Shown: positions 3,065-62,514 of the stretch, one piece after another
Layout of the letters: each line of letters opens with the position of its first letter
Position numbering within the stretch: the first letter of the stretch is position 1
Virus record (IMG/VR): IMGVR_UViG_3300043251_000023
Location: 1 to 64,000 of that record
Reading direction: 5' to 3' (one strand)
Length of the DNA: 64,000 nucleotides
From: a virus
The notes under the pieces: model-generated
Told to the model about the DNA's origin: nothing
Database searches by the model: none
The model's input: only the letters and a program-made list of their open reading frames with translations
Position numbers and translations under genes: made by a program

Positions 3065-3753
3065 TCGATGACGATCGCCTTCCGTGGTTCCATTGCTTCC
3101 CGTCGAAGTGGCTTGATGCTCTCGGCGGTCTGCCGGCAGACCAGAAGCTCGTCTATTCGATCATGCTTTTACGCATCTACGACGCCCGCGGCGCCTGCAT
3201 GGACTCGCTCGACGCGATCGCGACCCGCTGTGGGATCAACAAGAGGCGCACGACCGACGCTTTAGACGCTCTATTCAGAGCCGGAAAATTGGTTCGAATC
3301 GAGGGCGGAATCCATAACCCAAGGGCCATCGAACATATCGAGCGCGGCAATGCCCTCCGGGCGGAGCGCCAAAGGGCCGGCGCGGGAGGCGGCAAGAGGG
3401 CGGCGGAAATTCGCAAGCAAAATCAAACAGGGCCGCCTAGCAAAGCTATAGCTAGAGGCAAGCAGAAAGAGAAAGAGGTAGAAGACTCCTTATTCCCTAA
3501 CGGGAATAAGGCGCCGGTTTTGAAAAACGGAAACACTGAAGAGGCCGATCTATTCCGCCGTGGAAAGGAAATACTCGGCCCAGAAGCGGGCGGTCTTATC
3601 AAAAAGGTTTTGAAAGCCAAAGATGGGAACGTTCCGCAGGCGCGAGCCGCAATCGAAATGGCCGTCGGAAGAAACAATCCGCGCGAATACATCGGCGGCG
3701 TGATCAGAGCCGGTAACAGAACGCACGACGACACTGTGGATGGCCGCCTATGA
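3061..3753 (+). CDS. replication-protein-like HTH protein (DUF1376/YdaU-like)
   Basis: 230 residues. The N-terminus (LPWFHCFPSKWLDALGGLPADQKLVYSIMLLRIYDARG) matches the pattern of DUF1376-type phage proteins, where a winged-helix domain (to about residue 90) precedes a charged linker and a C-terminal segment (EYIGGVIRAG) like those of replication initiators or loaders. It lies directly upstream of the primase-helicase, as such proteins usually do, so a role in starting replication or loading helicase is inferred. ATG 3061 overlaps the previous stop; upstream in-frame codons belong to the other gene. Confidence 0.8.
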   Translation: MIDDDRLPWFHCFPSKWLDALGGLPADQKLVYSIMLLRIYDARGACMDSLDAIATRCGINKRRTTDALDALFRAGKLVRIEGGIHNPRAIEHIERGNALRAERQRAGAGGGKRAAEIRKQNQTGPPSKAIARGKQKEKEVEDSLFPNGNKAPVLKNGNTEEADLFRRGKEILGPEAGGLIKKVLKAKDGNVPQARAAIEMAVGRNNPREYIGGVIRAGNRTHDDTVDGRL

Positions 3754-4061
3754 TCACCGCCGGCGAGATTCTGCGTGAGCATCGAATCGTCCTACGAGAT
3801 GAGACGATCGGCCGTCACTACGCGACCTGTCCGCAATGTTCGGCGAAACGGAAGCAGGCACACCGAAAGCTGAAATGCCTCGGCGTGACAATAAACGGCG
3901 ACGGCTTGAACTGGGGATGCAATCACTGTGGCTGGACAGGAGGGGGATTCTATGACCGGAAAAACGTTAGGCGCGCTGGGAGTGGCAGCGTTCGAGCATC
4001 GGGGCATATCTCCGGAAACGGCCGGGCGGTACGGGATATATACCGCGCGCCGGACCGATGA
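3750..4061 (+). CDS. primase zinc-binding domain protein
   Basis: 103 residues. Cys27-x2-Cys30 (CPQC) and Cys57-x2-Cys60 (CNHCGWTGG) form the zinc ribbon seen at the N-terminus of T7 gp4-type primases, where it reads the template for primer start. Here it is a separate frame that overlaps the primase-helicase gene by 110 nt. Residues after about 67 are a shadow of the helicase frame. Either two polypeptides act together, or a +1 frameshift near the GGGGG run at 3942-3946 fuses them. Confidence 0.7.
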   Translation: MITAGEILREHRIVLRDETIGRHYATCPQCSAKRKQAHRKLKCLGVTINGDGLNWGCNHCGWTGGGFYDRKNVRRAGSGSVRASGHISGNGRAVRDIYRAPDR

Positions 4062-5469
4062 TGGTGGTCTTGAACCGCACGAAAAAGGCAATGTCGTCGT
4101 CTTTCCGTTCTCCGACCGAGGCGCGGTCGTCAACGAAAAATATCGCGCGCCGTCGAAGAAGTTTTGGCAGCGCGCCGGCGGCAAGCGAACGTTCTGGAAC
4201 GCCGACGCTTTAGACGATCCGGCACTCGAGGACGGTCGAATGCCGCTGGTGATCACCGAGGGAGAGATCGACGCCCTGTCGGCGATCGAGTGTGGTTTTC
4301 CGCTCACCGTATCGGTTCCGGACGGGGCGCCGGGAGTGCCGGAAGGCGAAGAACCTGAGAACCTCGCGCCGCTCGACCCGAAGGCAGAGGATTCCGGAAA
4401 GTTCGAGTTTCTGTGGAACAACCGCGAGCGACTGGCGCGCGTCAAAAGGTTCGTCCTTGCCGTCGATAACGACGGACCAGGCAGACGATTGGCGGCCGAA
4501 CTCATGCGCCGGCTTTCCGCAGCCCGCTGCTCGTTTGTGATCTATCCGGACGGCTGCAAGGATCTCAACGACGTGCTGACAAAGGGCGGCGCCGAAGAGG
4601 TCGCGCGCGTCATCAATGCGGCTAAACCGTATCCGGTTCGCGGTCTTTATCGACTTTCGGAATTTCCGCAAAACGGCGCGCTGCCGACTTTTAGAACCGG
4701 ATGGTCGACGCTCAACAACAATCTTCGCTTATTCGCTGGCGAGTTCATGGTCGTCACCGGCATTCCTGGACACGGCAAATCGACATGGGTTTTGAACTTG
4801 CTTGCTGACGCCGCCGATCTTCATGGATGGCGTTCGGCGATCTTTTCACCGGAGATGCCGACTGTTCCCCAGTTGCGAGACAAGTTGCGGCGCATCACGC
4901 TTCGAGGTCCGATCGAGGGGTCGAGCCACGATATGATCGCCGAGGCCGACGAATGGATTGAGCGAAATTTCGTCTTCATTGATGTCGACCCGACCGGGAA
5001 GGACGATGAAGAGTATGATCTGGATTGGGTGCTTGATCGCGCGACCGACGCTGTTCTGCGCGATGGCGTCCGTGTGCTGGTGATCGACCCTTGGAACGAG
5101 ATCGAACACGCCAAGCGGCGAGACGAGACGATGACGGATTACATCGGTCGCGCCATCCGCGCGATGAAGCGATTTGCGCGTCTATATGAAGTTGCCGTGA
5201 TCGTGGTCGCTCATCCAACCAAAGACGTCGCCAAGGAGGGAAAAAGCCGGCCGCCGACGCTTTATGACATCGAAGGTTCGGCACACTGGTTCAACAAGTG
5301 TGATCATGGAATCGTCGTCGACTGGCCGGATTCAAACATCGCCGAAAGCGTGATCCGCGTCGCAAAGGTTCGATTCGAGGAAAGCGGCGAACGCGGTCAG
5401 GTGCGGTTAAAGTTTGACAGGTATTCGGGCCGGTATGATCTGTTGATCCGCGAGGAGACGCCGCCATGA
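3952..5469 (+). CDS. primase-helicase (TOPRIM + RecA-like DnaB/gp4 family)
   Basis: 505 residues from ATG 3952, chosen because AGGAGGGG (3939-3946) lies just upstream; a GTG at 3928 is also in frame. Residues 1-225 are the primase TOPRIM region, with the catalytic Glu in VITEGEIDALS (about 103) and VDNDGPG (about 171-177) plus KDLNDVL. Residues 260-480 are the RecA-like helicase core: Walker A GIPGHGKST (about 270-278), Walker B VLVIDPWNE (about 375-383) and VIVVAHPTKD. It unwinds the fork and lays primers. The zinc finger usual for this family is in the overlapping upstream gene. Confidence 0.95.
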   Translation: MTGKTLGALGVAAFEHRGISPETAGRYGIYTARRTDDGGLEPHEKGNVVVFPFSDRGAVVNEKYRAPSKKFWQRAGGKRTFWNADALDDPALEDGRMPLVITEGEIDALSAIECGFPLTVSVPDGAPGVPEGEEPENLAPLDPKAEDSGKFEFLWNNRERLARVKRFVLAVDNDGPGRRLAAELMRRLSAARCSFVIYPDGCKDLNDVLTKGGAEEVARVINAAKPYPVRGLYRLSEFPQNGALPTFRTGWSTLNNNLRLFAGEFMVVTGIPGHGKSTWVLNLLADAADLHGWRSAIFSPEMPTVPQLRDKLRRITLRGPIEGSSHDMIAEADEWIERNFVFIDVDPTGKDDEEYDLDWVLDRATDAVLRDGVRVLVIDPWNEIEHAKRRDETMTDYIGRAIRAMKRFARLYEVAVIVVAHPTKDVAKEGKSRPPTLYDIEGSAHWFNKCDHGIVVDWPDSNIAESVIRVAKVRFEESGERGQVRLKFDRYSGRYDLLIREETPP

Positions 5470-5633
5470 GCGCGTGGGATGAGAACAAGAAAACATGGGT
5501 GCCGGAGCGGCCGATTATCGAGCGTTCCGACGACATCCGCGACGTGATGGAAGGGCCGATCGTCGGCGCGCTGGTATCGGTATTTCGCCAACTCGAGGAA
5601 ATGGGAGCGAAGCGCCATGGTCGCGATCAATGA
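5466..5633 (+). CDS. small hypothetical protein
   Basis: 55 residues (starts MSAWDENKKTWVPERP). It overlaps the helicase stop by 4 nt and the next gene by 17 nt. No domain recognised. The tight coupling suggests a real gene of the replication operon. Confidence 0.6.
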   Translation: MSAWDENKKTWVPERPIIERSDDIRDVMEGPIVGALVSVFRQLEEMGAKRHGRDQ

Positions 5634-50762: not shown

Positions 50763-51110
50763 ATGCGAACTTTTGGCCGCGTGGTCAATCCAGACGGAAG
50801 CAAGTCGTGGGTGGAAGTCACCACCGATGCTAACGGTTTTGATGACGCCGTGTGGATCACCACGCTTTGCCAAAACTTCCTATTGAATCTCAACGAGTCT
50901 CCGTTCGACGCCAACTGGGGATTGCCAGCGCAGCAATCCGTCCTTCAGCAGGTCCAGCCTGACTATTACGTCGCGCAGATTCAGCGGCAGTTTGCGCAAT
51001 ACTTCGCGAGCCTGATCATCTCCAAGGTGCCCGATGTGACAACGCCGACCTATAACGTGGCAGTGACCACAAATCAGGGCTCAAAAATTATCGTCCAGGT
51101 GCCGACATGA
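50763..51110 (+). CDS. gp25-like baseplate wedge protein
   Basis: 115 residues. WVEVTTDANGFDDAVWITTL, LCQNFLLNLNESPFDANWGLP and a C-terminal beta part are typical of the small gp25/W-like wedge proteins that start sheath assembly. Order spike, gp25, J matches other contractile tails. Confidence 0.8.
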   Translation: MRTFGRVVNPDGSKSWVEVTTDANGFDDAVWITTLCQNFLLNLNESPFDANWGLPAQQSVLQQVQPDYYVAQIQRQFAQYFASLIISKVPDVTTPTYNVAVTTNQGSKIIVQVPT

Positions 51111-52561
51111 GCAACACGGACTTCGAGTTTCCGGTCGTCATCACGTCGGCTGGGGTCCAACCGACGCCGCCAGCGACAATTCTCGCCGAACTTATCGCAA
51201 ACGTCAGCGCAACGAATCCTGGATATACGGCAGTTTTGCCCGGATCATTGATTCGCGATGTGTCGACTACGGAGGTCGGCGGCATCGCCCTGATCGACGC
51301 GGCGCGGGTCGAGACGCTGAACTCGATCTCACCCTACGCGGCGAACGACTTCCTGCTCTTGGAGCTCGGGCAAATCTATATCGGGCCGGGGGCGGCTCCG
51401 GGCGTCCCCACGAACACGTCGGTCTCGGTCGTCTTCACCGCCATAGACCCAAATACCAGCGCGCCGCTCGGCGGCCAAGTGATCGCGGTCGGTTTCACGG
51501 TTTCCGACGGGACCTACCAGTACATCGTCCAGGACGGCGGGGTCACGTCCTCGAACGGTCAAAGCCTGCCGCTGTTCTGCATCGCGACGGTCTCCGGTTC
51601 GTGGGCGGTCCCGTCGGGAAGCGTGACGCAACTCGTCACGGCAGAACCGCCGGACGTCAACCTGACGTGCTCCAACCCGCAGCCGGGCTTCGCCGGTCTC
51701 GCCGCGGAGACGACGGAGCAATTCCGCGCGCGCGTCCTGATGGCGGGCCAAGCGATCGGGACCGGGACCGAATCGCTCCTCAAGACGCAGTTGTTCCAGG
51801 TTTCCGGCGTCCAGCAGCGGCTCGTCTCCGTGCGCCAGCAGGGGGCGGCTTGGGAGGTGATCGTCGGCGGCGGCGACCCGTATCAGGTTGCCGGGGCTAT
51901 CTACGCCTCGGGGGTAAACATCGCCGGGCTGGTCGGATCGACGCTTTCGGTGACGAACATCACCAATGCGAACCCCGGGGTGGTGACGACGAACCTCAAC
52001 CATGGCTTCGCGACCGGGCAAGTCATAACGATGGCCGGCATCGTCGGGATGACGCCGCTCAACGGGATACCGCTCACGATCACGGTTCTGACGGAGAAGA
52101 CCTTCAGCATCGGCGTCGACACGACGGGTTATCCGCTCTACGTCAGCGGCGGCGTGGTTTCCCCGAACCTGCGCAATGCCACGCCGAACATCCGGGACGC
52201 GCCGGACCTTTACACGGTCCCCTTCGTCATCCCGCCGCAGCAGACGGTGACGATCGCGGTGACCTGGAACACGACGCTGCCGAACTTCGTCTCGCAGGCG
52301 GCGGTCGCGCAACTCGCCGCCACGGCAATCGCGGCCTACATCAATGGGATCGAGGTAGGGGCCCCGATCAGCCTGCTCGAGCTTGGGACGACGTTCGCCG
52401 CCGCGGTGATTTCCGTCATCGACCCGTCGACGATCTCGGTCCTGACGTTCGTCGTTTCGATCAACGGGGTCTCGACGGCGCCGACCGGACAGTTAGTCCA
52501 GGGCGATCCGGAGAGCTATATGTTTTCAACGGTCGCCGGCATCGCCGTAACGCAGGTCTAG
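51107..52561 (+). CDS. baseplate J-like protein with an inserted domain
   Basis: 484 residues. PGSLIRDVSTTEVGGIALID, FAGLAAETTEQFRARVLMAGQ and VIDPSTISVLTFVVSINGV fit the baseplate J / gp6-type family. Residues about 281-353 (VTTNLNHGFATGQVITMAGI ... GVDTTGYPLY) are an inserted beta domain like those in the sheath and plug. Forms the wedge ring around the hub. Confidence 0.82.
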   Translation: MSNTDFEFPVVITSAGVQPTPPATILAELIANVSATNPGYTAVLPGSLIRDVSTTEVGGIALIDAARVETLNSISPYAANDFLLLELGQIYIGPGAAPGVPTNTSVSVVFTAIDPNTSAPLGGQVIAVGFTVSDGTYQYIVQDGGVTSSNGQSLPLFCIATVSGSWAVPSGSVTQLVTAEPPDVNLTCSNPQPGFAGLAAETTEQFRARVLMAGQAIGTGTESLLKTQLFQVSGVQQRLVSVRQQGAAWEVIVGGGDPYQVAGAIYASGVNIAGLVGSTLSVTNITNANPGVVTTNLNHGFATGQVITMAGIVGMTPLNGIPLTITVLTEKTFSIGVDTTGYPLYVSGGVVSPNLRNATPNIRDAPDLYTVPFVIPPQQTVTIAVTWNTTLPNFVSQAAVAQLAATAIAAYINGIEVGAPISLLELGTTFAAAVISVIDPSTISVLTFVVSINGVSTAPTGQLVQGDPESYMFSTVAGIAVTQV

Positions 52562-53647: not shown

Positions 53648-54280
53648 GTGTCCATATTTTTGATGGCGAATAATGCGTCGAGCACGCTCGCCGCGCCCAT
53701 ATCGAACTCCGCGACGACGGTCTCGCTCGCGGTCGGAACGGGAGCGCTGTTTCCCAACCCTAGCGCCGGCCAGCAATTCCCCCTCACCTTCAACGATGCC
53801 GCGACCGGGCTTTTGACGGAGATCGTCTATTGCACCTCGAGGGCCGGGGACACGCTCACCATCGTCCGGGCGCAGGAAGGAACGACTGCGCAGGCGTGGC
53901 TGGCGGGAGACCTCGCGGCGAACCTCATCACGGCAGGATTGCTCGCGGCCTACCAGCAGAGCGCGGCGCTCAGCCCGGCGCGGACGGTCACGGCCTCCGG
54001 GGCCTTCGCGATGAGCACGGCCGATGCCGGCGGAGGCGTCGGTCTTGACAGGATTGTCGGCCCTGCGGTTTCCTCGACCACGCTCCCGGTCTCGACCGAT
54101 GGGCAAACCTACTGGATCGAGGACCTCGCCAGGAACTTCAACGCCTATCCGGTGACGGTGACATTTCCCGGGGGAACGACTGGACCGAACGGCGCCGCGA
54201 CGGTCACGCTCAATGTCAACGGTCAGTGCGCGCAGTTCCGCTTCTACGCCGACAGCAACATTTGGAGTTTCCGACCATGA
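53648..54280 (+). CDS. tail fibre protein
   Basis: 210 residues, GTG start after AGGAGGG. ANNASSTLAAPISNSATTVSL, TEIVYCTSRAGDTLTIVRAQ, EGTTAQAW is the usual N-terminal module of phage fibre proteins; the C-terminal part is beta-rich. Overlaps the next gene by 4 nt. Confidence 0.72.
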   Translation: MSIFLMANNASSTLAAPISNSATTVSLAVGTGALFPNPSAGQQFPLTFNDAATGLLTEIVYCTSRAGDTLTIVRAQEGTTAQAWLAGDLAANLITAGLLAAYQQSAALSPARTVTASGAFAMSTADAGGGVGLDRIVGPAVSSTTLPVSTDGQTYWIEDLARNFNAYPVTVTFPGGTTGPNGAATVTLNVNGQCAQFRFYADSNIWSFRP

Positions 54281-55674
54281 CGAAGAGAATCGCCGCCTTT
54301 GCGGCCGGTCTTTTCCTTCTCCTCGCCTTCGCCTTCCCGGCGGCGGCGCAGTTCGACCAGGCGTCCTACGCCGGGACCGGAGCGGGCTCCGCGAACGCGC
54401 AGACCATCACCTTGCCGAACGCCACGCAATACAGCGATCTTCTCGGCGTTCTGATCAAGTACATTCCCGGCGTGACGAACACGGCCGCGGCCACGCTCGC
54501 CGTATCCGGTAACGGCGGTGCGCTGACCGGCGGTCCCATCTCTTTCCGCAAGCCGTCCATCGGCGGTCTGGTCGCCCTGACCGGCACCGAACTGATCGTC
54601 GGGCAACCCGTTTGGATCATGTACGACGGGACCTATTTCGACGTTCTGAGTGTGACCAGCAGCACGGTGACGGCCGCGAATCTCGCAAACTCGGCGCTCG
54701 GTTTTATGCCAGTCAATTCTCAGCTCAATGCTGCGGTGTCGGCTAACGCGCTGACGATCTCACTGTGTTCGGCCAACTCCGGCAGCAATACGTGCATCAA
54801 TCCAAGCGCGACGAGTCCGGTCCTGATCCCGTTCCGTGATTCCACGATTGCCTTTGGTGATCCGACTATCGTTCCGGTCACTGGCGCGCTCAGCTTCACC
54901 ATCGCGTCTGGGCAAACGATGGGCTGCGTCAATAACCAGATGTGCCGGCTCTGGATTCTCGCCTTCAACAATGCCGGGACGGTCCAGCTTTGCGCGTTCA
55001 ACGCGCTCAGCGGAACGTCGGTGGCGCCGATCAACGAGGGCGTCCTGCAGACGAGCCAGTCCGGCACTTCAGGCGGCTCGTCGGCGCAGCTTTATTACTG
55101 CAACGCCTCGGCGGTGACGAACAAGGCGGTCCGCATCCTCGGCTACGTCGAGATCAGCGAGTCCACGGCGGGGACTTGGGCGACCGGGCCGACCTACGTT
55201 CAGTTGTTCGGCCCGGGCGTGAAGAAGCCCGGTGACGTAGTCCAGCGCATTTTCTCGACTAATAGCACTTCGTATTCGTCGACGACGTCCTACGCGGCGG
55301 CGACGAATTTCAACCAAGCCATCACGCCGACGTCGGCGGCAAACCCTGTGTTTGTTCATGCAGAAGCCAATTACCAGACGACCGCGAACGACGGCAGCAA
55401 CGCTCAGATCGGCCGAACGAGTTGCTCGAATCTGGTGGGGAATAATGCGGTGCTCAGTGGAAGCACCGCCGTGATTGGCATGGCGCCAGTATCGGCCATC
55501 GACTCCCCAAACACCACCTCGTCCGTCACTTACGTTCTGTGCCTGAAATCGTCGGTTAATGGCGCGACCGCGTTCAACAATAATACCGGCAACATCAGTT
55601 CGATGTCGGTCGAGGAGATTATGGGCGCGCTAGAACCGGCGAACGACGACCAACCGCTCCGCATGGTGGGCTGA
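54277..55674 (+). CDS. fibre-like protein with a signal peptide
   Basis: 465 residues. Residues 1-25 (MTKRIAAFAAGLFLLLAFAF then PAAAQ) are a textbook Sec signal peptide with an AxA-Q cleavage site. The mature part starts with the fibre module (SYAGTGAGSANAQTITLPNA, VWIMYDGTYFDVL) and a long beta-rich, Ser/Thr-rich region. A signal peptide on a virion protein is odd because virions assemble in the cytoplasm. Confidence 0.75.
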   Translation: MTKRIAAFAAGLFLLLAFAFPAAAQFDQASYAGTGAGSANAQTITLPNATQYSDLLGVLIKYIPGVTNTAAATLAVSGNGGALTGGPISFRKPSIGGLVALTGTELIVGQPVWIMYDGTYFDVLSVTSSTVTAANLANSALGFMPVNSQLNAAVSANALTISLCSANSGSNTCINPSATSPVLIPFRDSTIAFGDPTIVPVTGALSFTIASGQTMGCVNNQMCRLWILAFNNAGTVQLCAFNALSGTSVAPINEGVLQTSQSGTSGGSSAQLYYCNASAVTNKAVRILGYVEISESTAGTWATGPTYVQLFGPGVKKPGDVVQRIFSTNSTSYSSTTSYAAATNFNQAITPTSAANPVFVHAEANYQTTANDGSNAQIGRTSCSNLVGNNAVLSGSTAVIGMAPVSAIDSPNTTSSVTYVLCLKSSVNGATAFNNNTGNISSMSVEEIMGALEPANDDQPLRMVG

Positions 55675-55675
55675 C

Positions 55676-56002
55676 ATGGCAGCGACTCCCGTCACGCCGC
55701 AACCGGCGCTCAACTCTCAGGTCGCCGTCGGCGGAACCGCGGTGAATGTCTTCGGGCCGGCGCCGAATGGCGGCTATCTCCAGAACCCGGCGTCGGCAAA
55801 CGATCAGGGCATCGGCGCTGCGGAAGACTTGATCGTCAATCCAGTCACCGCGGCAGTCGCGCCCGGCGTCGCCGGCGGCGTCAATGGAACGAACTTCCGC
55901 ATCCCCCCCGGCGGGGGATGGAATCTCATCGCTGGACAGACGACTCCTACTTCGATGAACGCGGCAACGTCGGGCCACAAGATAAGCGGCGTGTCTTATT
56001 GA
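55676..56002 (+). CDS. small tail-region protein sharing a domain with 52563-53636
   Basis: 108 residues. NSQVAVGGTAVNVFGPAPNG, LQNPASANDQGIGAAEDLIV, IPPGGGWNLIAG and ATSGHKISGVSY match the N-terminal domain of 52563-53636. A duplicated attachment module, probably a fibre adaptor. Confidence 0.68.
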   Translation: MAATPVTPQPALNSQVAVGGTAVNVFGPAPNGGYLQNPASANDQGIGAAEDLIVNPVTAAVAPGVAGGVNGTNFRIPPGGGWNLIAGQTTPTSMNAATSGHKISGVSY

Positions 56003-56012
56003 GGAACGAAAA

Positions 56013-59000
56013 ATGCTGAATATCGCGCGCGCATTTGCGTTCCTTGCCGTCGTTGCATTCGGCGGTTCCGCCGTTGCACAACCTGGTCCGGGACAAAATA
56101 GCGGCCCGGTCCCACCGCCGTCGCCTTGGCTCTATGCGGCGCCGCAGATTTATCCCCCGACTGGATCTTGCGTGACGATGCCGCAGACCGTGCCAGGCGG
56201 CTGCCCGGGCGCAGGCAACGCGATCAACGTCTCTGGCGGCTATTATCTTAACGGCGTTGCCCTTGATAGCATAAGCAGCGTCACGCCTCCTCTAAGTGTC
56301 AGCTCTGGAGTTCTCAGCATTCTCAATGGGACCTCCATTGCCAATCCCGGTACGGGAACGCTTGAAGATTTAGTGCCATCGCAGACGATCACCGGAACCA
56401 GCAAAGTTTACGCCACGGTCGATCTCTGGAAGCGGACACGACGTTCCAATTCCGGAACGGCGATGACCGACACGCTACCGGCTTCTTCGGCAACGGGCAT
56501 GGTCAATGGCGCCCGCATTGAGATCAAGAACGTGGATGCTTCGGCGACGGACACGGTCAGTGCCGGCGCCGGGACGACAATCATTGGCGGGGCATCCTTC
56601 TCGCTCCAGGCAGGCCGCGACCTAGAGTTGACCTATGACCTCGCAAACACGACGTGGCGAGCGGAGGCCAATACCGATACCGCGGCGCTCATCAATCAGC
56701 CGAACTTCTACAGCGCGGACAACTATTTTGGTTCGGGCCGTCCAGTGTGCGACCCGCGTGCAAAAGGGGCAGTTGGCAACGGGAGCACAGACGACAGCGC
56801 GGCGTTCAAGGCTTGCCGCGTGGCACTTGATGCTATTGGCGGCGGCGTTATCTATGTGCCGCCAGGGAATTACTGTCTAAAGACCGCCGACGCGAACAAC
56901 GCGGTCATCGCAATTTCGGCAACGCCGATCACGGTCATCGGCGCCGGCATCAACGTCTCAAATCTATGGACCTGCGGTACCGACGTTACAATCGGTTACG
57001 CGAATATCGTTGGCGCCGGCTTCTTGAATTTGAGCTACCTGGGCAAAGGGGGTCAAGGTAACCCTAACGACACCACCTTTGGTGCTACGTCGCCAGCTTT
57101 CAAATTTGATACGTCATGCGGTATTTGTCGGATCAGTTACGTGCGCGGCTTTGGCGGCCTCTATGCTCTGCAAAACCTTGGCTTTGATAGCTGGGTATCG
57201 GACTTCTCATTCGGCTACACTTACGGCAACGCGATCATGTATGAGGCTGGCAACGGCCATCGGGTGGAACATGGCGCGCTGGATCAAAATTGGCCGGTCG
57301 TTCTGCCGAACCAAAATTCAGTCACGATCAGCGCGTGGCAAGCGACGCATTCCTACAGCGGCAACGGCGCTTCGAACACGAATGTCGTTTCGACGCAAGG
57401 CTACAATATTCAGCTTGTGAGTGCGAGTTGCACTAGCGGCGGTACCGCGCCGCCCTTGAATAATTACGGAACTGTGATTGTGGATGGGTCCTGTTCCTGG
57501 CAACTCGTCGGCAACACGACCTATTACGGGGAGGATTGCGACGGGAATTGCGCCGAACTTATCCTGCATGGCGAGGTCGATCTGAATTGCGGCGGCTGCA
57601 CATACGACTTCGCCATGACGAACAACAATGCTGGAACCGCCCCCAACGTTGTGACCGTCGACGGATCAAGCATCGGGCAGGCCATAATCGCACCTATCGG
57701 GCTGCTCGCCGGGTCAGGGTTTACGCTGTCGAACAGCCATATCGCGACCTCCGTACAGGGTGGGGCGTTGGGCCTATACGTCCCGGCAAGCGGCTTCACC
57801 GGGGACGCGTCCATTGTCGGCAATAGATTTAGCGGGGGCGGCGCGTGCATCGGAATTGGCACTGCGCCGTCTGGACAGGCCGGATATACGATAACCGCTA
57901 ACCGGTTTTTAAGCTGTTCCCAGGCTATCGATTATTTCAATACCGGGGCGGCGCTGCACATTACGGCCGGTCACAATACGATGGTCGGCGTCAGCAATGC
58001 GTGGGTGTCGCCCGCCGGCTCAAGCTATTACGAATTCACCAATAACGATGTGGGTGGAGCGGCAGTCACCTTCACGAGTGGGGACGCCAACAAGAAGATC
58101 GCCGGCAACGACGGTTCGGCAACGCCTGTTAGTAACGGTGGCACTGGTTTAGCTACATTGACAGCGCACGCGGTTCTGCTCGGCGAGGGCGCCGGTAACG
58201 TCGCCTTTGCCACCATCGGCACCGGTGGCAGGCTGTTGATCGACCAGGGCGCGGTCGATCCCGTCTTCACCGCGATGAGCGGCGACGCCGCGCTGGCAGC
58301 GAGCGGCGCGCTAACGCTGGCGACAGTGAACGGCAACGTCGGCACCTTCGGCGGCGCCAACGCCATCCCGAGCATCACCGTCAACGGCAAGGGCCTCGTC
58401 ACCGCCGTCTCGACCGTGGCGCCGAACCCGACCCAGGTTAACGGCGTCTCCTTCGGCGCCGCACCGATCGGCACCAACACCGTCTGCGTTGCGACCAGCA
58501 CCACTGCTTGCGCTTGGAGTTCGGTGCCGAACGCGGCGCTCGCCAACTCGACGATCTCGGGCGTCTCGCTCGGCGGCAGCCTCGCGGTGCTGAGCTACGG
58601 AACGCACCTGACCAACGGGGCCGGGGCCGGCTCCTACAACGGCTCCGCCGCGTCAACGCTCGCGACTGACGCGACCAACACCAACACGGCGTCGACCATC
58701 GTCGCCCGCGACGGCTCCGGCAACTTCTCCGCCGGGACAGTCACGGCCAGCCTGACGGGGCACGCGTCACTGGACCTCGCGCTGACCGGGGGGGCGATGT
58801 CGGGCAACATCGCGATGGCCGGCAACTCGCTCACTGGAGCGATGGGGCTGAACGGCGTCGAGACGATTCTCAGCGGCGGCAACATCGGCTTCGGCACCGA
58901 GACCAACCCGCAGGCGGCGTTCGTCTTCAGCGCGAACACCACGACCGGCATCACGTTTCCGGTCAACACGAGCGGGCTCTGGTCGATCAGCGCCAACTCC

Positions 59001-59702
59001 GGCAACGTGCCGGGGTTCAACGCCCTGGCGTTTGCCACGAACGGCAGCAACTTCTTCTTTCGCGCCGACGGCACCGCGGCGAGCCCCACGGCGCTCGCGC
59101 TCAACGACAACATCGGCGCCATCACCTGGGGCGGCTACGCCGGGTCCACCGCCGGCTACGTCTCCAGCAAGGCCCGCATCGCGGGCATCGTGATCGACGC
59201 CTCGGGCTACGGCACCTCGACGCAGGGCACCGGCATCGAGTTCGACGCCACGCCGTCCGGCAGCACCACCCGCGCCCAGGCCGGTCGCTTCATGGCGGGC
59301 TTCATCGTGGGCACCGGCACGACCGACCCCGGCGCCGGTAATGAACTTGTCGGTGGTCATATCCTAGCAACCGGAACGGCGCCGACGATTTCTGCCTGCG
59401 GCACCGGAACGCCGACGATCTCCGGCGGCGACAACTTCGGGACCGTGGTGGCTGGCACTGTCGCCACGTCGTGCGTCGTCAACTTCGGAGCGACCTGGGG
59501 TGCCGCCCCGCGTTGTGCCGTCTCGTCGGGAACAGCCATTGCTTCTTTGACTGTCAGCGCCACGACGACGCAACTGACGATCACCGGGACCGCGCTCGGC
59601 GGCGACACGATCAACTGGGTCTGCGGGAGCACCGCCAGCCTGGAACCGAATGGTTCGCCGGCCAACGACAATGCGCCACCGTGGCTATCCAAAGCCGCTT
59701 GA
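56013..59702 (+). CDS. tail fibre with pectate-lyase-type beta-helix and signal peptide
   Basis: 1229 residues. Residues 1-23 are a Sec signal peptide (ARAFAFLAVVAFGGSAVAQ). About 240-700 form a right-handed beta-helix: CDPRAKGAVGNGSTDDSAAF and GGGVIYVPPGNYCLK are the start of the pectate_lyase_3 fold seen in capsule depolymerases. The rest has fibre repeats (TGLATLTAHAVLLGEGAGN, GGANAIPSITVNGKGLVTAV) and a Cys-containing end. It probably binds and may cut host surface polysaccharide. Confidence 0.8.
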   Translation: MLNIARAFAFLAVVAFGGSAVAQPGPGQNSGPVPPPSPWLYAAPQIYPPTGSCVTMPQTVPGGCPGAGNAINVSGGYYLNGVALDSISSVTPPLSVSSGVLSILNGTSIANPGTGTLEDLVPSQTITGTSKVYATVDLWKRTRRSNSGTAMTDTLPASSATGMVNGARIEIKNVDASATDTVSAGAGTTIIGGASFSLQAGRDLELTYDLANTTWRAEANTDTAALINQPNFYSADNYFGSGRPVCDPRAKGAVGNGSTDDSAAFKACRVALDAIGGGVIYVPPGNYCLKTADANNAVIAISATPITVIGAGINVSNLWTCGTDVTIGYANIVGAGFLNLSYLGKGGQGNPNDTTFGATSPAFKFDTSCGICRISYVRGFGGLYALQNLGFDSWVSDFSFGYTYGNAIMYEAGNGHRVEHGALDQNWPVVLPNQNSVTISAWQATHSYSGNGASNTNVVSTQGYNIQLVSASCTSGGTAPPLNNYGTVIVDGSCSWQLVGNTTYYGEDCDGNCAELILHGEVDLNCGGCTYDFAMTNNNAGTAPNVVTVDGSSIGQAIIAPIGLLAGSGFTLSNSHIATSVQGGALGLYVPASGFTGDASIVGNRFSGGGACIGIGTAPSGQAGYTITANRFLSCSQAIDYFNTGAALHITAGHNTMVGVSNAWVSPAGSSYYEFTNNDVGGAAVTFTSGDANKKIAGNDGSATPVSNGGTGLATLTAHAVLLGEGAGNVAFATIGTGGRLLIDQGAVDPVFTAMSGDAALAASGALTLATVNGNVGTFGGANAIPSITVNGKGLVTAVSTVAPNPTQVNGVSFGAAPIGTNTVCVATSTTACAWSSVPNAALANSTISGVSLGGSLAVLSYGTHLTNGAGAGSYNGSAASTLATDATNTNTASTIVARDGSGNFSAGTVTASLTGHASLDLALTGGAMSGNIAMAGNSLTGAMGLNGVETILSGGNIGFGTETNPQAAFVFSANTTTGITFPVNTSGLWSISANSGNVPGFNALAFATNGSNFFFRADGTAASPTALALNDNIGAITWGGYAGSTAGYVSSKARIAGIVIDASGYGTSTQGTGIEFDATPSGSTTRAQAGRFMAGFIVGTGTTDPGAGNELVGGHILATGTAPTISACGTGTPTISGGDNFGTVVAGTVATSCVVNFGATWGAAPRCAVSSGTAIASLTVSATTTQLTITGTALGGDTINWVCGSTASLEPNGSPANDNAPPWLSKAA

Positions 59703-59740
59703 CCGCGCTATTCTTGAGTTCGTCAACAGGGAAAACCACC

Positions 59741-60223
59741 ATGCGAATCATCGCCATTGCTCTTGCCGCCATCGCCATTGTGACGCCAGCCGCCGCTCAA
59801 TCTCCAAAGCCACTCACCGTCCTGCAATGCCTCACCGTTCTTAAAGGCCTCTCCGCTCTCGGCTGCGTCGGCGAACAACTCGACGGGACGTGCACGCCCG
59901 ACGCCAAGCAGTACAAACTCGGCGCGCTCCGGCTGACCACCGGCCTGAATATCTCGCGCCTTCAGGACTTGGCGAACACGGTCCAGCGCGCGCAGAACGG
60001 CTTCAACTCAGAACTGCCGCCGCTCGATCCGAAGGCCTTCGATGCCGACAAGGTCGCGCGCGGCAACCAGATTCAAGCGAACTGGAACAAGATTATCGAC
60101 GCGGAGTGCCCGGTCCAGCCCGGCCACATCAAGGCGTCCGACTTGAAGCTCGGCGATGGTCCGGACGAGAACGCGGTCCCGCCGTCCGTACTTGGGGCGC
60201 TGGCGCCGATCATTGACCCCTGA
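59741..60223 (+). CDS. secreted hypothetical protein
   Basis: 160 residues. Sec signal peptide (RIIAIALAAIAIVTPAAAQ), then a helical mature part with three Cys (LQCLTVLKGLSALGCVGEQL, DGTCTPDAKQYKLG). CAACAGGG leader at 59724. Between fibre and endolysin genes, so a periplasmic lysis or exclusion role is possible; unknown family. Confidence 0.65.
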   Translation: MRIIAIALAAIAIVTPAAAQSPKPLTVLQCLTVLKGLSALGCVGEQLDGTCTPDAKQYKLGALRLTTGLNISRLQDLANTVQRAQNGFNSELPPLDPKAFDADKVARGNQIQANWNKIIDAECPVQPGHIKASDLKLGDGPDENAVPPSVLGALAPIIDP

Positions 60224-60236
60224 CCGGGAGGCAAAA

Positions 60237-61067
60237 GTGCAGCATCCTTTTCAAGTTCTCAGCCCGGAATACACGCATCTGCTCGCGCAGATGAAGATCA
60301 CGCGAGTCGCTGACGTCGACGCGACGGCGGAGAGGTTGCTGAAGTATGTCGACGCCGGACATTACGATGCTGGGTGTAAGGCAACCGGAGTCCCGATCAT
60401 CGTCGCCGCCGCTTCCTTCGAGCGGGAGGCGTCGTCAAACTTCAACCTCAACCCGGCGCAGGGATGGCCGCTGCACGAAAAGTCGAAATGGACTCCCTAC
60501 AATGGCCCATTTGACGATTGGACGACGGCGCAGATCGCGGCCTACAAGATCGACGGCCTTGACAAGATCGGAGCCGCAAACTGGTCATGGGAATACGGTT
60601 GCTATGAGGAGGAGGGATTCAACGGGTGGGGTTACCGCGCGCACGGCATCCCGTCGCCGTACCTCTTCGGTGGGACCAATATCCAGAAGCCTGGAAAGTA
60701 CACCTCAGACGGCCGCTTCGATGCGTCCGTGATGGACACGCAGCTTGGGGTGATCCCGATCATGCTTCGGATGGTCCAGATCAGGCCGTCTCTCGCGCTG
60801 CCGTTTCCTTTCCCCGCCGCCACAGCGAGCCCGGTTGTCGTCCCGGTCCCGACGCCGGCGCCCGTCGGGCTGCAGAACGCGGAGATGCTCCAGAACGCCT
60901 TGAATGAACTCGGCGCCGACCCGAAACTCGCCGTGGACGGCAACTTCGGAAGACAGACGCGGCGCGCGCTGATCGCTTTCCAGGCCGCGAACGGTCTCGA
61001 ACCTGATGGCTTGGCAGGCCCGCTCACCTGGAAAATTATCAACTCCAAGATCGCGATGCCGAAGTAA
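60237..61067 (+). CDS. endolysin with C-terminal peptidoglycan-binding domain
   Basis: 276 residues, GTG start after GGGAGGC. Catalytic part (about 1-200): IIVAAASFEREASSNFNL (likely catalytic Glu), YEEEGFNGWGYRAHGIPSPY, VMDTQLGVIP, a muramidase type common in phages. Pro/Val linker, then a PG_binding_1 domain at about 225-274 (LQNALNELGADPKLAVDG, FGRQTRRALIAFQ, DGLAGPLTWKII). Degrades the wall at lysis; no signal peptide, so a holin is needed. Confidence 0.85.
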   Translation: MQHPFQVLSPEYTHLLAQMKITRVADVDATAERLLKYVDAGHYDAGCKATGVPIIVAAASFEREASSNFNLNPAQGWPLHEKSKWTPYNGPFDDWTTAQIAAYKIDGLDKIGAANWSWEYGCYEEEGFNGWGYRAHGIPSPYLFGGTNIQKPGKYTSDGRFDASVMDTQLGVIPIMLRMVQIRPSLALPFPFPAATASPVVVPVPTPAPVGLQNAEMLQNALNELGADPKLAVDGNFGRQTRRALIAFQAANGLEPDGLAGPLTWKIINSKIAMPK

Positions 61068-61707: not shown

Positions 61708-62514
61708 ATGACGCGCAAGTTTCTCCTGGCGACGACCGCGCTCGTCGCTCTGAGCGCCTCCGCTTTCGCCGCCGATCTTCCGTTGAAAGCACCGCCTGCC
61801 GCTCCTGCTGCTGCCGGTTCCGGCTGGTACGTTGGCATTCTCACCGAAGCCGACGTTGCTCAATCGAACGTGAGTGGCACGAACGTATTCGCGACCAGCC
61901 TCGCCAGCGGTAATCTGACCGCAACCGGCGGCGCCGTGGGTGGCGAGTTCGGCTATATCGGGAATGGTCCCATCGGGTGGTATCGACTTCAGGCCACTGG
62001 CGAATGGAGCGACATTTCTGGCGCCGAGACCGTTCAATCGACGGCAACGACCAGCGCGGCGAGTGCAGCCGTTGCGAGCCGATGGTCCGCGACCCAAGAG
62101 TTCGACATCGGCTTCGAGTGGATTCAAAAAATCTACGCGGCGCTACCGACTCTCGGCGTCATCAACTTCCCGACGTTTACTCCGATCACGCCGACAGTCC
62201 CCGTCGGGGCACCGCGCCAGTACGTTGGCGTCGGCATCAAGGAAGCCGGCCTAACCGGCACCTTTGGCGCCGCTCAGGGTACCTCTGTCGGCGTCTACCC
62301 GATGATCACCGGCGGCTTCATCTGGCCAACGCTCAACGCGGCCGGCAAGCCGAACGGTGGCGCGATCGACGCCTCCGCCGGCGTGGCGTTTCCGGTCAAG
62401 GGATTCACCGTGGGGAACGCCTTCGCGACGGATGGTGCCCCTCTGACGCTCGGCGCTGGCGCTAGCCTCGGCACGCAGTACTGGACCCGGCTGAGCTACC
62501 AGTTCGGCCTGTGA
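61708..62514 (+). CDS. porin-like outer-membrane protein
   Basis: 268 residues. Signal peptide (MTRKFLLATTALVALSASAF then AA), mature N-terminus ADLPLKAPPAAP as in many Rhizobiales outer-membrane proteins, alternating beta strands (GEFGYIGNGPIGWYRLQATG...) and an aromatic C-terminal strand (YWTRLSYQFGL). An outer-membrane beta-barrel is likely. Its leader has CAACAACAGGGG (61686-61697). In a phage it may block superinfection or change permeability; a host origin is inferred. Confidence 0.75.
   Translation: MTRKFLLATTALVALSASAFAADLPLKAPPAAPAAAGSGWYVGILTEADVAQSNVSGTNVFATSLASGNLTATGGAVGGEFGYIGNGPIGWYRLQATGEWSDISGAETVQSTATTSAASAAVASRWSATQEFDIGFEWIQKIYAALPTLGVINFPTFTPITPTVPVGAPRQYVGVGIKEAGLTGTFGAAQGTSVGVYPMITGGFIWPTLNAAGKPNGGAIDASAGVAFPVKGFTVGNAFATDGAPLTLGAGASLGTQYWTRLSYQFGL

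Follow-up and report, generated by a model that had tools for sequence, protein, structure and literature searches.

By the accepted view, both synthesis and assembly of tailed-phage fibres take place in the cytoplasm, and the soluble depolymerases known to us are cytoplasmic surplus of virion tailspikes and carry no signal peptide. Phage T5 encodes an exported protein, Llp, beside its receptor-binding protein pb5, and infection by T5 is blocked when pb5 is added (PMC9586334). Here we analyze a window of 64 kilobases (kb), the whole stretch of DNA under study, taken from the 73.5 kb IMG/VR virus record IMGVR_UViG_3300043251_000023, in which two fibre-like genes at the end of the tail module, 54277 and 56013, and a small gene, 59741 (genes are named by their first position in the window), begin with predicted Sec signal peptides.

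Signal Peptides on Fibre-Like Proteins

A rule-based caller detected signal peptides at all three N-termini, MTKRIAAFAAGLFLLLAFAFPAAA^QFDQ for 54277, MLNIARAFAFLAVVAFGGSAVA^QPGP for 56013 and MRIIAIALAAIAIVTPAAA^QSPK for 59741 (the caret marks the cleavage site), each with a charged n-region, a hydrophobic core and an AxA/VxA-Q cleavage site. When the first 35 residues were shuffled, the score of the caller was equalled in 0 of 2000 cases for 54277, 1 of 2000 for 56013 and 29 of 2000 for 59741. Run at 1525 start codons that lie inside fibre-like open reading frames (ORFs), the caller gave a single hit, a rate indicating that the signal calls are no by-product of alanine-rich composition. Caller, shuffles and internal-start control agree on the n-h-c structure with an AxA-type cleavage site that marks substrates of Sec and signal peptidase I, and bear out the original prediction, made on this DNA by an earlier reader, that these three genes encode signal peptides. 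A fourth, at 61708, had been missed there. In a 93% relative (L005; such handles denote the loci compared), the signal of the 54277 protein reads MRIVAFILGLFLLGVVPAAA^Q, differing by substitutions and a deletion, while the DNA flanking it is 87-91% identical between the window and L005. The signal has been re-sequenced yet is intact, which suggests that the function of the segment was kept rather than its letters; the cleavage-site residues are conserved although the signal sequence varies.

Relatives of the fibre modules were fetched from IMG/VR by similarity and form a sample, not a census. Among 566 ORFs from about 45 loci, a signal peptide was called in 38 of 113 fibre-like ORFs as against 2 of 197 other ORFs of at least 200 amino acids (Fisher p 8e-17). 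A few of the entries counted as signal-less, L019 and L033 among them, look signal-bearing by eye, and the contrast is therefore understated if anything. Two or three signal-bearing fibre-like ORFs follow one another in L003, L008, L014 and L049. Judged on gene content, L003 is a phage of the tail-tubular type, whereas the window phage is assigned to the contractile-tailed phages because terminase, portal, head morphogenesis, tail sheath and baseplate wedge genes are present; the class is therefore not tied to one tail type. Among phage isolates, tblastn revealed no relative with a signal, and the fibres of the rhizobial phages PBC5, phiM6 and Atu_ph08 bear none. Two scans of genome collections with the fibre modules likewise yielded no relative in bacteria or prophages; the host may be a rhizobial alphaproteobacterium. 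Near a tail fibre gene of Sinorhizobium phage PBC5 itself, gp16 (L084 10482-11531) is an SGNH/GDSL hydrolase with a signal-like start, MKTFGKVLAVMALLGCFASLDTVANAQ, not called by the rule-based caller; it may be an enzyme that this isolated phage exports.

Paired Cysteines

Signal-bearing fibre-like proteins hold 1.47 cysteines per 100 amino acids compared with 0.46 in signal-less ones (p 1e-7), in loci fetched partly by cysteine-containing patterns, and the number of cysteines in the mature protein is even in 33 of 39 signal-bearing as against 32 of 55 signal-less proteins. Such enrichment and pairing are as expected of disulphide-bonded periplasmic or extracellular proteins. The 8 cysteines of the mature 54277 protein form 4 local pairs and the 22 of 56013 form 11. 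Within the 54277 domain family, signal-bearing members have 2-6 cysteines, mostly in co-occurring column pairs, and signal-less members 0-2 (exact p 0.0005, relatedness being ignored). The paired columns, 15/24, 71/78, 86/94, 100/146, 104/118 and 163/179, are gained or lost jointly in signal-bearing members; column 104 also holds an unpaired cysteine in several signal-less members, and gp15 of Pseudomonas phage AH02, a signal-less relative, has none of these paired-column cysteines. The tree of the family requires about four gains or losses of the signal, and well-supported branches force two or three of these.

The original prediction had named the absence of the signal from relatives as a refutation, and this was found in part: same-domain relatives without a signal do exist, but with other N-termini and few cysteines, and these N-termini are virion-type where recognizable (e.g., L046).

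A Signal in Place of the Virion Anchor

Past the signal, alignment to the inner part of fibres that have no signal is frequent: mature residues 9-86 of 54277 pair with residues 335-404 of the L002 fibre (3237-5627, signal-less), and mature residues 11-89 of an L003 protein with residues 201-283 of the L016 fibre (52%). In these alignments the signal thus stands where the virion anchor was, and most signal-bearing proteins tested have no recognizable anchor. Signal-bearing genes often come after a short signal-less fibre gene. In the window the stop codon of that gene, 53648, overlaps the start of 54277 (ATGA), an overlap with the preceding short fibre gene that recurs in L005, L003, L055 and L067. 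Residues 1-95 of the 53648 protein match Yersinia and Klebsiella phage tail fibres at 54-59%.

The 54277 and 56013 proteins had been described as otherwise standard fibre proteins, a description that did not hold in family searches: neither matches a Pfam, PHROG or NCBIfam tail family above cut-off, nor a PHROG or Pfam domain for virion attachment at the N-terminus, and the same searches of the signal-bearing proteins returned nothing except a pectate-lyase-like start in 56013. The domain of 54277 is nevertheless found in AH02 gp15 and in signal-less fibres, making these modules homologous to known fibres. Its AlphaFold model is usable for residues 143-453 (54703-55635) and consists of beta-sandwich domains, the C-terminal part being TNF-lectin-like. 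With long low-TM viral capsid matches set aside (TM, template modelling score), the best matches in a PDB fold search are the Photorhabdus TNF-like lectin 9ib7 (target TM 0.76, root-mean-square deviation 2.8) and the Pgp3 C-terminal domain; the TNF-like fold is assigned from a predicted structure, not a solved one.

For 56013, the depolymerase-like beta-helix of the original prediction finds some support in a match to Pect-lyase_RHGA_epim (PF12708) at about 56766-56972 that lies below the curated cut-off (E 4e-5); the AlphaFold model of that part is too poor for a fold search (predicted local distance difference test, pLDDT, 45). The first 75 amino acids are 85% identical in L005 and the middle of the protein is replaced; this constant start with an exchanged middle is the mosaic arrangement of fibre tips. 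A conserved four-cysteine C-terminal domain at 59310-59639 matches L002 and L003 at 66-68%, and the protein ends in the tail LEPNGSPANDNAPPWLSKAA.

A C-Terminal Tail

An exact-match scan of the DNA in IMG/VR for CTNGARCCNGCNAACGAYRAC returned 25 stretches. In about eleven contigs the match encodes a C-terminal tail of the form LEPAND(N/D), 14-17 residues long, nearly always on 54277-family proteins; the other matches correspond to chance expectation by a rough estimate. The N-terminus is readable in seven of the tail-bearing proteins, and each of these carries a signal peptide, a weak one in L081, while signal-less members of the family stop ahead of the tail; it is missing in the signal-bearing L049 and L055. 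A looser EPxNDN tail ends 56013 and proteins of L002 and L003. In the AlphaFold model of 54277 the tail is disordered, and a 21-residue tail query gave no match in phages or plasmids. The PANDN core (55630-55650 and the tail loci) resembles the alphaproteobacterial transfer-messenger RNA tag (ANDN..AA); it might be an SspB/ClpXP-type motif clearing unexported precursor.

Neighboring Genes

The features of the region are collected in Table 1. Where the tail module ends, the genes run in the order baseplate wedge 51107, 52563 (phrog_8212), 53648, 54277, 55676, 56013, 59741, endolysin, 61084 and 61708, where 61084 is a small membrane protein, holin-like by position, and the GTG start of the endolysin is inferred from likeness to the start of the L002 endolysin.

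Table 1. Coordinates of features at the end of the tail module in the window.
Feature	Coordinates	Strand	Evidence
Short signal-less tail-fibre protein, virion-type N-terminal domain	53648..54280	+	phrog_8469 tail fiber E 1e-24
Sec signal peptide of 54277 protein, 24 amino acids, cleavage AAA^Q	54277..54348	+	
Mature fibre-tip protein of 54277, putatively exported	54349..55674	+	AlphaFold, PDB fold search, cysteine positions
C-terminal tail LEPANDDQPLRMVG of 54277 protein	55630..55674	+	Not in signal-less members
Signal-less protein of 108 amino acids, like N-terminal domain of baseplate-region protein 52563	55676..56002	+	tblastn
Sec signal peptide of 56013 protein, 22 amino acids, cleavage AVA^Q	56013..56078	+	
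Mature fibre-like protein of 56013, 1207 amino acids, putatively exported	56079..59702	+	
Small protein of 160 amino acids, putatively exported, signal 59741-59797, 4 cysteines, no family	59741..60223	+	
Endolysin, C-terminal PG_binding_1 domain	60237..61067	+	Pfam PF01471 E 3e-16; PHROG endolysin
Outer-membrane-type protein, signal peptide then AADLPLKAPP, no cysteine, putatively exported	61708..62514	+	

The 55676 protein, which stands alone directly ahead of the signal-bearing 56013, matches the 52563 homologue in L005 at 38% over 107 amino acids. The original prediction had listed 59741 among the fibre-region proteins. Its product is not a fibre but a small four-cysteine protein for which the family searches gave no relative, and the gene lies just upstream of the endolysin. 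In L049, a further small protein that looks exported (LRFCTIAIAIAFMMLPALAQQQ) is encoded at 5005-5283 with signal-bearing fibre genes on either side, a placing akin to that of 59741 next to such genes.

Outer-membrane-type proteins are found near the lysis genes in the window (61708) and in L002 (12082-12786), and another in L012 (6779-7474), to which 61708 is 28% identical. After the signal, the three read AADLPLKAPP, AADLPVKAPP or AADLP, the likeness to L002 being confined to signal and motif. Such proteins possibly serve receptor masking or superinfection exclusion. Further upstream, residues 268-349 of the baseplate wedge protein 51107-52561 form a small domain (NPGVVTT..HGFATGQVITM..GMTPLNG) that matches phrog_584 and, by eye, is also inserted in the long tail protein L003 10878-14102.

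Proposed Function and Alternatives

We propose that 54277 and 56013 would be fibre-tip proteins rerouted to Sec, with a signal peptide replacing the virion-anchoring N-terminal domain. They would be expressed as part of the late fibre operon, translation of 54277 being coupled to that of the short signal-less virion fibre, exported to the periplasm, cleaved at AxA-Q and folded there with disulphide bonds, and then released at cell lysis, after which the TNF-lectin-like tip and the pectate-lyase-like protein may bind or cut surface glycans. Possible benefits are that progeny are kept off debris and sibling cells, that other phages are blocked or that polysaccharide is cleared. The signal peptides, the cysteine pairing, the lost anchor, the gene coupling and the fold class of 54277 are supported by sequence and modelling; actual export, disulphide formation, release at lysis, glycan activity and action free of the virion we infer. 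Export with disulphide bonds is the best-supported step and, on the sequence evidence, highly probable. Binding or cutting of glycans is plausible given the modelled folds, and the explanation as a whole (exported, disulphide-bonded, anchor-less fibre tips, freed at lysis and acting on surface glycans) seems to us somewhat favored.

Several observations weigh against this proposal. Sec export by itself keeps a protein in the periplasm until lysis; the independent contrasts in the tree are too few for significance on signal and cysteines changing together; and the cysteine-containing fetch patterns inflate the contrast in cysteine content, though they bear less on cysteine parity. L045 3532-4932 encodes a beta-helix that lacks a signal and holds 11 cysteines, and the signal-bearing L049 and L073 have only 2 cysteines within the C-terminal 310 amino acids. 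Finally, L014 14010-15986 has a signal ahead of an apparently intact N-terminal domain of the signal-less-fibre type, an arrangement better suited to a virion protein.

This last protein also speaks for the strongest alternative, in which the products belong to the virion as fibres but undergo maturation in the periplasm, the oxidized tips docking at lysis on short signal-less stubs such as 53648, perhaps via the conserved C-terminal tail or a constant N-terminal segment. The coupling to short fibres in several phages and the shared, disordered tail of the 54277 family favor docking, as do the constant 75 residues and exchanged middle of 56013 relative to L005, which resemble virion fibres, and AH02 gp15, which is annotated as a tropism determinant and encoded next after a gene annotated as a tailspike. 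Because the usual anchor is lost in most signal-bearing proteins tested, we prefer free action after lysis; we know of no tailed phage in which exported fibres dock after lysis, and consider docking possible but doubtful. Equally tentative is the generalization that in many uncultivated tailed phages part of the equipment for adsorption passes through Sec, disulphide-bonded fibre tips maturing in the periplasm and being added to the particles as the cell lyses, with LEPAND(N/D)..VG as a tag for docking or sorting.

A further reading has the proteins cross the outer membrane, or lodge on it, ahead of lysis and alter the surface of the infected cell, with LEPAND(N/D)..VG as a sorting or anchoring tag and superinfection exclusion as the outcome. 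This is improbable: the tail motif is limited to signal-bearing members wherever the N-terminus is readable and the region encodes the outer-membrane-type protein 61708, but L049 and L055 bear signals without the tail, and to our knowledge no outer-membrane secretion signal of the LEPAND type has been described. The original prediction had left a choice between export and hydrophobic fibre tips. Uncleaved tips assembled in the cytoplasm would follow the rule in tailed phages, but the conserved cleavage sites, the altered but kept signal in the close relative and the enriched, paired cysteines favor export and make such tips very unlikely. Chance or wrong start codons, suggested by the reliance on one rule-based caller and by several possible starts at some loci, can practically be dismissed given the internal-start rate and the recurrence of the feature across dozens of loci.

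The proposed class would imply either an overlooked extracellular arm of exported lectins and depolymerases or an overlooked periplasmic step of fibre maturation, and should Sec-routed tips join virions, morphogenesis of tailed phages would not be wholly cytoplasmic. Host-range prediction from fibre-like genes may include proteins absent from the virion. The signature, a signal peptide, an even cysteine count, a missing anchor and the LEPAND tail, is searchable in any viral dataset, and a literature search found no paper describing exported fibre-like phage proteins.

Comparison with Known Systems

With the soluble phage depolymerases released at lysis, the likeness lies in the pectate-lyase-like start of 56013. 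In its C-terminal half, 54277 is predicted to fold like TNF-like lectins (Photorhabdus PLTL) and the Chlamydia Pgp3 C-terminal domain, at an identity of about 10-15%; this half differs in being fused to a phage fibre module, and its sugar binding is putative. The T5 superinfection-exclusion lipoproteins Llp and Cor are likewise phage-encoded and exported, the gene for Llp adjoining that for a receptor-binding protein; Llp, however, is small, lipidated and located on the periplasmic face, whereas the window proteins are large, non-lipidated and apparently fibre-derived. Ordinary tailed-phage fibres and tailspikes (e.g., AH02 gp15 and the signal-less L045-L048, L050 and L051) share the TNF-lectin-like C-terminal domain, the repeat modules and the location in the fibre region, and from them the window class differs in a signal peptide in place of the virion anchor, paired cysteines and, on many members, the LEPAND tail. 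Fibre-derived proteins as such are already known; the new element would be their signal-bearing, cysteine-paired, anchor-less variant.

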